Source: Pseudodesulfovibrio nedwellii
GTDB lineage: Bacteria > Desulfobacterota > Desulfovibrionia > Desulfovibrionales > Desulfovibrionaceae
DNA length: 64,000 nt
NCBI RefSeq assembly: GCF_027923765.1
Contig: NZ_AP026709.1
Span: forward strand, 1,979,501-2,043,500
Direction: 5' to 3'
The translations under genes and the position numbers were made by a program. Shown in pieces: positions 27,754-30,486 of the stretch (the first letter of the stretch is position 1; every line of letters begins with the position of its first letter). Below the pieces are notes generated by a model, which was given only the letters and a program-made list of their open reading frames with translations, ran no database searches and was not told where the DNA came from.

Positions 27754-27922
27754 TGTGGTGGCCTCGCATACGTTTTTTTGGCTGTTCTCGGAATGGTGGA
27801 AATTAGCTCATACCAACGGGGTGGTCAACATCGAGTGCAGATAATCTGCAACTTTCGATTTGACAATTACTCCTATTAACCTTACCTCTTCCTTTCTCGA
27901 CCACATTTAGGAGGAAATTAAC

Positions 27923-28270
27923 ATGTTCGAAGTTACAGAAGCTGCCCAGAAGCAGCTTGAAGGCTACTTCCAGGACAAAGACGCATCTCCCATTCGCGTC
28001 TATCTCGCAGCCGGTGGCTGAGCAGGCCCTCGCCTGACTCTGGCTCTGGATGAGCCTAATGATAAAGACGAAGTTTTCGAGGCCGCTGGTTTGACCTTCC
28101 TTGTTGACAAGGAATTGAGCAAAGAAACCGGCAATATCAAGATTGACATGACCTACTACGGTTTCGTGGTTGAGTCTGAAAATCCTGTTGGCGGCGGCGA
28201 AGGCGCCAGCTGTGGATGCTCTTCCGCTGGTTCCTGCGAGTCTAACGGCTCCGGTGGCTGCGGTTGCTAA
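27923..28270 (+). CDS. HesB/IscA-like selenoprotein (in-frame UGA = Sec33)
   Basis: A 115-residue protein if the UGA at 28019-28021 is read as selenocysteine. AGGAGG at 27909-27914 sets the ATG. The frame stays open for 82 codons after UGA, to TAA at 28268. Residues align throughout with the cysteine paralogue at 30175-30486: Sec33 replaces Cys33 of its GGCSG motif, and PIRVYLAA, LTLALDEP, IDMTYYGF and the cysteine-rich tail all match. Hairpins suited to a bacterial SECIS follow UGA: CAGGC-CCTC-GCCTG (28023-28036), flanked by GAGC/GCTC. HesB-like selenoproteins are a known family. The likely role is iron-sulfur or redox handling. A strong terminator follows. Confidence 0.9.
28019..28046 (+). 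promoter_or_regulatory. candidate bacterial SECIS element after UGA
   Basis: Directly after the UGA is a perfect hairpin CAGGC-CCTC-GCCTG (28023-28036), enclosed by GAGC (28020-28023) and GCTC (28043-28046) as an alternative outer pair. Bacterial SECIS elements sit immediately 3' of the UGA inside the coding region. The exact fold and apical loop cannot be settled by eye. Confidence 0.5.
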
Positions 28271-28307: not shown

Positions 28308-28353
28308 GCCCGGACCTTTGCGTACAAATAGACGCAATGGTCCGGGCTTTTTT
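28308..28353 (+). terminator. terminator after selenoprotein gene
   Basis: GCCCGGACC then TTTGCGT, short loop, ACGCAA and GGTCCGGGC, followed by six Ts. The two-part stem is long and GC-rich, so transcription of the selenoprotein gene should end here, before katA. Confidence 0.9.
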
Positions 28354-28527: not shown

Positions 28528-29979
28528 ATGTCAAAGAAAAAACTAACGAACAATTTCGGCGCTCCAGTCGCCGATAACCAGAATGTGATGACCGCCGGAC
28601 CACGGGGACCACAACTTCTGCAAGATGTATGGTTTCTTGAAAAACTTGCCCATTTTGACAGAGAAGTAATTCCTGAGCGCAGAATGCACGCCAAAGGATC
28701 AGGCGCATACGGCACATTCACCGTGACCAAGGATATCACACAATACACTAAGGCGAGCATTTTCGCGGAAGTAGGAAAGAAAACCGACATGTTTGCTCGT
28801 TTCTCCACTGTCGCCGGAGAACGTGGCGCGGCAGATGCGGAACGCGATATTCGTGGCTTTGCTCTGAAATTTTACACGGATGAAGGCAACTGGGATTTGG
28901 TAGGAAACAACACGCCTGTTTTTTTCCTGCGTGACCCGCTCAAATTCCCAGACCTCAATCACGCCGTTAAGCGCGACCCGCGCACCAATATGCGAAGCGC
29001 AAAAAACAACTGGGACTTCTGGACATCGCTGCCCGAAGCTCTGCATCAGGTCACCATAACGATGAGCGATCGTGGCATCCCACAATCATACCGCCATATG
29101 CACGGATTCGGCAGTCACACTTTCAGCTTTATCAACGCTAACAACGAAAGATTCTGGGTCAAATTCCATTTCCGGTCGCATCAGGGCATCAAGAACATGA
29201 CCGATGAAGAGGCTACCAAAACAGTTGGTATGTGCCGTGAAAGTCATCAACGAGATTTATACGACACTCTTGAACAAGGCGATTTCCCCAAATGGACACT
29301 CAGTGTCCAGATCATGCCGGAGAAAGAAGCCGCTACCTACAAGCACAACCCCTTTGATCTAACAAAAGTCTGGTACCACGGGGACTATCCCTTGATTGAA
29401 GTCGGTGAAATGGAGCTGAATCGTAACCCTGAGAACTACTTTGCGGAAGTGGAACAAGCCGCTTTCAACCCGGCGAGCATTGTTCCTGGCATTGGCTTCT
29501 CCCCCGACAAGATGCTCCAGGGGCGCCTGTTCTCCTATGGAGATGCACAACGCTACCGCCTCGGCGTCAATCATCACCTGATTCCAGTTAACGCTGCCAA
29601 ATGCCCTGTCCATGGCTACCACCGGGACGGTGCAATGCGTGTGGATGGTAACTATGGTGACACCCTTGGCTATGAGCCGAACAGCTATGGAGAATGGCAG
29701 GAGCAACCGGAACACAAAGAACCGCCGCTTGAACTGGATGGCGCGGCATACAACTGGGATCACAGAGAGGACGAAGACTATTACACCCAGCCCGGCAAAC
29801 TGTTCAGACTGATGTCACCTGATCAACAAAAAGTCCTCTTTCAGAACACGGCCAGTGCAATGGGTGATGCCCCGGAAGAAATCAAACAACGCCATATCGG
29901 CAACTGCATGAAAGCTGACCCCAACTATGGGAAAGGCGTGGCAAAAGCCTTGGGACTGACTCCGAAATGCATCGATTAG
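28528..29979 (+). CDS. katA: catalase
   Basis: A 483-residue monofunctional haem catalase that splits hydrogen peroxide. The active-site segment [20 protein letters not shown] holds the distal His54, and the haem-ligand Tyr lies in [14 protein letters not shown] near residue 335. The length is that of small-subunit (clade 3) catalases, without the extra flavodoxin-like domain. GGAG lies before the ATG. It is placed between the selenocysteine and cysteine IscA-like genes, a layout that fits oxidative-stress protection in an anaerobe. Confidence 0.97.
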
Positions 29980-30034: not shown

Positions 30035-30174
30035 TCTATACAATTTATAGACAAAATCTTTTTGAGAGTCGCAACAAAGCACAATTTTGCATACAAAAAA
30101 AAGGCCCTTACCTCTTTACAGAGACTAATTCCTACTTATTTGGTTTCAAACACATCAACTCTCAGGAGAGACCA

Positions 30175-30486
30175 ATGATTAACGTAACCGAATCTGCACA
30201 GAAAGAATTGACCACATATTTTGCCGACCGCGAAGTTCAGCCCATCCGTGTCCATCTGGCCGACGGAGGCTGCTCCGGCATGAGACTTTCATTGGCTTTG
30301 GACGAAGTTCGTGACGGAGATAAATCCGTCGAGCACGCCGGCTTTACTTTCCTCATCAATGAAGAATTGGCCGAGGCCTCTGGAACCGTCTCCATCGACA
30401 TGACTGACTACGGTTTCGCCATCGATTCCGAAAATCAGATCGGCGGTGGTGGATGCGGCAGTTGTGGTGGTGGATGCGGCCAATAG
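30175..30486 (+). CDS. HesB/IscA-like protein, cysteine form
   Basis: A 103-residue paralogue of the selenoprotein at 27923-28270. Cys33 in ADGGCSGMRL takes the place of Sec33. The rest matches closely: PIRVHLAD, LSLALDEV, GFTFLINEEL, IDMTDYGFAIDSEN. The tail is glycine-cysteine rich (GGGGCGSCGGGCG), unlike the CxC pair of E. coli IscA, so it is an IscA-like rather than a standard A-type carrier. Function likely involves iron-sulfur or metal handling. AGGAG precedes the ATG and a strong terminator follows. Confidence 0.88.
   Translation: MINVTESAQKELTTYFADREVQPIRVHLADGGCSGMRLSLALDEVRDGDKSVEHAGFTFLINEELAEASGTVSIDMTDYGFAIDSENQIGGGGCGSCGGGCGQ

Follow-up and report, generated by a model that had tools for sequence, protein, structure and literature searches.

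HesB-like selenoproteins in related organisms

HesB was counted among the known selenoproteins in 2005 (PMC1242214). HesB-like selenoproteins were then listed in 2006 for D. vulgaris, D. desulfuricans and others (PMC1794560), and DVU_1382 of D. vulgaris was named in 2007 as a UGA-containing HesB gene (PMC1914089). Recent reviews list the HesB-like family with the motif UxGP (PMC13188914). The view in the preliminary description of this DNA that such proteins are an established family is thus borne out (PMC1794560, PMC1914089, PMC13188914). Since the family was described in 2005-2007, the Pseudodesulfovibrio gene reported here is one more member of it. DVU_1382 and the D. desulfuricans gene are likened to it by their published descriptions, as UGA-containing HesB-family genes from other species of the same bacterial family. 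In the available portions of the literature on the D. vulgaris and D. desulfuricans HesB-like selenoproteins, we found no description of a neighbouring Cys copy or of SECIS details.

The archaeon Methanococcus maripaludis has a HesB-like selenoprotein that was labelled with 75Se (work cited in PMC11097638). A disruption mutant retained nitrogen fixation, and the function of the protein was called not clear (PMC11097638). M. maripaludis also has Sec/Cys isogene pairs regulated by HrsM (PMC11097638), and in P. nedwellii Sec and Cys isoforms likewise occur in one genome. Selenium regulation was shown there for other selenoproteins.

We analysed a 64,000-nucleotide stretch of the P. nedwellii genome, referred to as the window. 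The best overall explanation of the locus (probability approximately 0.85) is that it encodes a HesB-like selenoprotein in which Sec33 would be inserted by SelB with the help of a hairpin, and which would be an A-type-like binder of iron or an Fe-S cluster accompanied by a Cys isoform. What is new here is the definition of the predicted SECIS element and the finding that the tandem Cys copies have no single origin. The SECIS hairpin is sharply delimited and backed by compensatory changes, and it recurs in this genome in an unrelated selenoprotein.

A gene with an in-frame UGA at codon 33

Sequence and translation confirmed the reading frame proposed in the preliminary description, which runs from ATG 27923 through an in-frame TGA at codon 33 and then over 82 sense codons to TAA 28268-28270. 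The strong ribosome site that it had claimed is also present, and a Shine-Dalgarno-like GGAGG was seen upstream of nearly all UGA copies read. The features of the gene are as follows.

27923-28270, + strand: HesB-like selenoprotein gene, 115 residues with predicted Sec33 (translation, profile scores, genus-wide conservation)
27909-27914, + strand: Shine-Dalgarno sequence AGGAGG, 8 nt 5' of the ATG (sequence)
28019-28021, + strand: UGA codon 33, probable selenocysteine codon (UGA/Cys alternation among homologues; Sec machinery in the genome)
28308-28353, + strand: likely intrinsic terminator, with GCCCGGACC ... GGTCCGGGC and then TTTTTT (sequence)

The terminator was missed by the scan tool because its loop is too long for that tool. 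The immediate neighbours of the gene are pyrR, homoserine kinase and catalase, none of which is an Fe-S assembly gene. Rfam gave no match over gathering score near the gene, and PADLOC gave no defence-system match. A table-11 list of open reading frames of at least 80 aa contains nothing on the + strand at 27923-28270. The expectation that routine annotation would lose the gene is true of a plain table-11 ORF caller. It is weakened by the NCBI library, which now has the model NF038090 for this family, and by the presence of annotated HesB-like selenoproteins in RefSeq (PMC13188914).

A search for selA, selB, selC and selD had been proposed as a check, and all four were found over their curated cut-offs, with one strong copy each of selA (612 bits), selB (399 bits), tRNA-Sec (selC; 79 bits, gathering score 47) and selD (341 bits), the last itself containing a UGA. 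The same genome also has in-frame UGA codons in three formate dehydrogenases that exceed the cut-off and in one partial homologue.

Within the order, 283 of 297 genomes had a homologue. Every one of the 33 Pseudodesulfovibrio genomes sampled had selA and an in-frame TGA in the HesB-like gene, at codon 33 in every copy read. Such conservation, which extends over many genera, rules out a pseudogene or a sequencing error at codon 33. Alignment of orthologues had been suggested as a way to reveal UGA/Cys alternation. Among 112 homologous copies from the genus and other genomes, codon 33 (numbered 30-33 depending on the chosen start) was UGA 73 times and a Cys codon 39 times, with no other residue, even though the search pattern allowed any residue at this position. 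Alignment of relatives also showed that the frame 3' of the UGA is under protein-level selection. The extra stops recorded in some relatives ("TGA plus TAA/TAG") were considered and set aside: they lie past codon 33 and, wherever the sequence was read, are the ends of shorter proteins.

The UGA form was nearly confined to genomes with selA. The 18 relatives in which selA went undetected were searched a second time, and in 16 of them the HesB copies contained no in-frame UGA. Nine of the 16 showed Cys on direct reading, and the site was not recovered by the script in the other seven. The two remaining genomes (G222 and G266) have a UGA copy. Both are fragmented drafts of 810-820 contigs, and five other sampled members of their genus all have selA, so the missing selA is likely an assembly gap.

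A conserved SECIS hairpin 3' of the UGA

The preliminary description had noted a hairpin after the UGA. A hairpin is indeed present, but the RNA in fact folds into two (-20.5 kcal/mol over 46 nt; no shuffle was equally stable), and only the second is conserved.

28020-28040, + strand: first post-UGA hairpin, stable in this species yet not conserved (MFE fold; 68% of cells paired)
28042-28056, + strand: predicted SECIS hairpin GGCUC-UGGAU-GAGCC, loop 28047-28051, 25 nt 3' of the UGA (conservation, covariation, published model)

Across 61 distinct UGA sequences, the second hairpin had 305 of 305 cells paired and was the sole structure found by RNAalifold. The stronger-looking first hairpin was rejected as the conserved element on the same alignment (68% vs 100% paired cells). 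The stem of the second hairpin contains two double compensatory changes, U-A to C-G at locus L072, which forces Glu to Gly, and G-C to A-U at L097, which forces Pro to Leu. These two cells are all the compensatory changes in the stem, and slid-partner controls gave none. Two further stem pairs are GU-tolerated. Codon usage within the hairpin was nearly fixed in UGA copies (Ala+8 GCT in 72/73, Leu+9 CTG in 73/73, Glu+11 GAG in 72/72), whereas in Cys copies synonymous choice was free (GCC in 25/38, CTG in 24/36, GAA in 17 and GAG in 15). The corresponding stretch of the Cys paralogue has no unusual fold (z 0.04).

The published constraints on bacterial SECIS elements are an apical loop of 3-9 nt, an upper stem of 4-16 bp, a G within the first two nucleotides of the loop, a distance of 16-37 nt from the UGA and an MFE of -7.5 kcal/mol or lower (PMC13188914). 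A SECIS search over 28015-28060 had been proposed, and the hairpin at 28042-28056 within that interval fits these constraints, with a 5-nt loop (UGGAU) that has G at position 2, a stem of 5 bp, a spacing of 25 nt and a folding energy of -7.6 kcal/mol when the 15 nt of the hairpin are taken alone.

In the same genome, the three formate dehydrogenase genes (L109, L110 and L111) have GGCUC-UGGNN-GAGUC after their UGA, one codon nearer, and the pattern common to them and the HesB-like gene is GGCUC-UGGNN-GAGYC. The exact HesB hairpin had no other match in the genome, the formate dehydrogenase version differing from it at three positions. A common hairpin is expected if one SelB serves both, and the pattern suggests a putative lineage-specific SelB recognition hairpin. 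A further formate-dehydrogenase-like gene of this genome (L112, G000:C1:1696752-1697507, - strand) has an in-frame TGA in DHCART-U-HAPSV followed by the hairpin GUCGUC-GGUCU-GACGAC, whose loop is unlike those of the genome's other SECIS elements.

We propose that SelB with Sec-tRNA-Sec would bind the hairpin at 28042-28056 while the ribosome stands at the UGA at 28019, and that selenocysteine would be inserted at residue 33 of the HesB-like protein. Sequence and comparative evidence for this step is strong, and SelB-dependent insertion at residue 33 appears nearly certain; every computational check proposed in the preliminary description favoured it. The alternative that the UGA really ends translation or is a lesion of recent date, leaving a pseudogene or only a 32-residue peptide, would fit the codon itself and the empty table-11 list. 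Against it stand the occurrence of UGA at the same codon throughout the sampled genus and in many other genera, the selection on the frame past the UGA and the conservation of the downstream hairpin at synonymous sites, which together leave this reading a negligible probability. Decoding of the UGA as some other residue, by general readthrough or reassignment, found no evidence in its favour and is also very improbable, given the complete Sec machinery of the genome, Cys as the sole alternative residue in homologues, the SECIS pattern common to the genome's own formate dehydrogenases and the absence of the UGA form from nearly all relatives lacking selA.

Similarity to A-type Fe-S carriers

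With the UGA read as a residue, the Sec protein matched the NCBIfam model NF038090 (IscA_HesB_Se) along the full model length and scored 118.6 bits, the cut-off being 85; the Cys paralogue likewise matched along the full model with 107.2 bits. Both copies in the window are thus over the cut-off, with no difference from the family that matters; no mention of NF038090 was found in the literature searched. The Sec protein also exceeded the gathering score of Pfam PF01521 (Fe-S_biosyn; 33.8 bits vs 26.3). It did not reach the cut-off of TIGR01911 (HesB_rel_seleno; 37.3 bits, E 3e-9, vs 66.35). The UxGP motif listed for HesB-like selenoproteins (PMC13188914) is present as U33-A-G-P36. TIGR01911, with this motif in common and a weak profile similarity, is a neighbouring subfamily.

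A profile of the Sec protein and its relatives matched solved structures of HesB/IscA type, AQ_1857 (1nwb) with an E-value of 7e-12 and GGC aligned over GGC. The AlphaFold model had a pLDDT near 90 for most of residues 1-90, with the C-terminal tail unplaced, and its best PDB matches were IscA (1r94, 1x0g, 1s98) and SufA (2d2a), with E-values of 1e-6 to 1e-5. The GGC-over-GGC match and a fold nearest to IscA and SufA place residue 33 at the first conserved ligand Cys of the carriers. The Sec copy has the A-type carrier fold with the ligand position in the GGC-x-G loop, where Sec replaces Cys. Aligning 22 relatives showed columns 33 and 97 to be the invariant Cys/Sec columns. Despite the fold (1r94, 1x0g, 2d2a) and GGC-x-G loop in common with IscA, SufA and ErpA, the protein differs from these A-type Fe-S carriers in having Sec for the first Cys and a variable Gly/Ser/Cys tail for their C-terminal Cys motif. 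Its scores with the three equivalog models were 24.9, 27.2 and 28.0 bits, all below the respective cut-offs of 150.6, 136.2 and 117.

The product would fold like IscA and SufA with Sec33 replacing the first conserved ligand Cys, and Sec33 and the cysteines of the Gly/Ser/Cys tail would most likely bind iron or an Fe-S cluster. A role as an Fe-S or metal carrier is moderately probable from these similarities. Cluster binding is a prediction, because the scores lie below the IscA/SufA cut-offs and AlphaFold did not place the Cys-rich tail. The low scores, the differing tail, the neighbouring genes, which are not Fe-S genes, and the retained nitrogen fixation of the M. maripaludis disruption mutant (PMC11097638) count against a carrier role. 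The first three would also suit a selenoprotein that does not carry iron or Fe-S clusters but acts as a thiol/selenol redox enzyme, or senses or binds toxic metals. Most selenoproteins that await characterisation are taken to be redox proteins (PMC13188914), and a catalase gene adjoins the gene here, though not as a rule in the genus. The fold and the GGC-x-G site are nevertheless those of A-type carriers, and the sequence U-A-G-P contains neither a UxxC nor a CxxU motif. We consider the redox or metal-sensor role quite possible, although we lean against it, and retain the A-type-like iron or Fe-S binder as the preferred reading.

Pairing of Sec and Cys copies

A Cys paralogue lies downstream in the window.

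30175-30486, + strand: Cys paralogue, 103 residues, Cys33, with its own Shine-Dalgarno sequence and terminator (sequence, profile, alignment)

The paralogue has TGC at the codon corresponding to the UGA, in agreement with the Cys claimed for this position in the preliminary description. It was also said to align with the Sec protein over the whole length. The alignment (55% identity, E 1e-37) in fact covers residues 1-89 (89 residues) and stops there because the Gly/Ser/Cys tails differ and are unalignable. In this species, the two copies are separated by a catalase gene (28528-29979). It looks like an insertion, because Sec and Cys copies are only about 110-700 nt apart in most congeners read.

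A Sec/Cys pair is present across the whole bacterial family. A maximum-likelihood tree built from 90 columns of 111 copies needed 12 changes between UGA and Cys, at least 7 of them forced by well-supported branches. Most Cys copies of the genus Pseudodesulfovibrio formed one clade (100/99), and in several other genera the Cys copy grouped with its own Sec neighbour. On the tree, Sec and Cys copies of tandem loci outside the genus (L089, L081, L087, L088, L084, L061 and others) were interleaved. A single ancient origin of all Cys copies was rejected (AU p = 2e-47 for a tree holding the Cys copies together). Repeated duplication or gene conversion in Desulfovibrionaceae may each explain the tree, to be taken with caution at 90 columns and with long branches. 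At one locus on the minus strand (L039 in genome G094), two Cys copies (2063 and 2588) stand beside one Sec copy; the copy at 2063 is diverged, with a long branch and a tail down to a single cysteine.

We tentatively suggest that the Cys paralogue at 30175 probably serves as an isoform under conditions, or for tasks, in which Sec is unavailable or unneeded. The many Pseudodesulfovibrio genomes with matched Sec and Cys forms are suited to a direct test of HesB-like function.

Upstream regions of the two copies

A conserved region precedes the Sec copy.

27860-27890, + strand: putative promoter region, TTGACA (-35, 27860-27865) and strongly conserved CTTACCTCTT (27881-27890) (conservation; function predicted)

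The TTGACA...CTTACCTCTT region is kept in nearly all members of the genus and is looser in much of the family. Its -10 element is non-consensus. The pattern TTGACA-N11-18-CTTACCTSTT had a single occurrence in the genome, and a regulon for the motif was rejected on that basis. The regions upstream of the Cys copies are different, and in some of them dyad-like sequence is visible by eye at the promoter. That selenium switches expression between the Sec and Cys copies is a guess.

A broader scenario for Desulfovibrionaceae is that the pairing of the Sec form with a mostly adjoining Cys form arose repeatedly, through independent duplications or through one duplication and repeated conversion, and that the Sec copy is expressed from a conserved constitutive promoter, its Cys counterpart having an operator of its own and standing in for it in a selenium-dependent manner. 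We regard this combination as rather unlikely; if true, the repeated pairing would be a natural replicated experiment on the contribution of Sec to an A-type carrier. As a separate observation, in this species CTTACCTCTT is also present by itself at 30107, 5' of the Cys copy.
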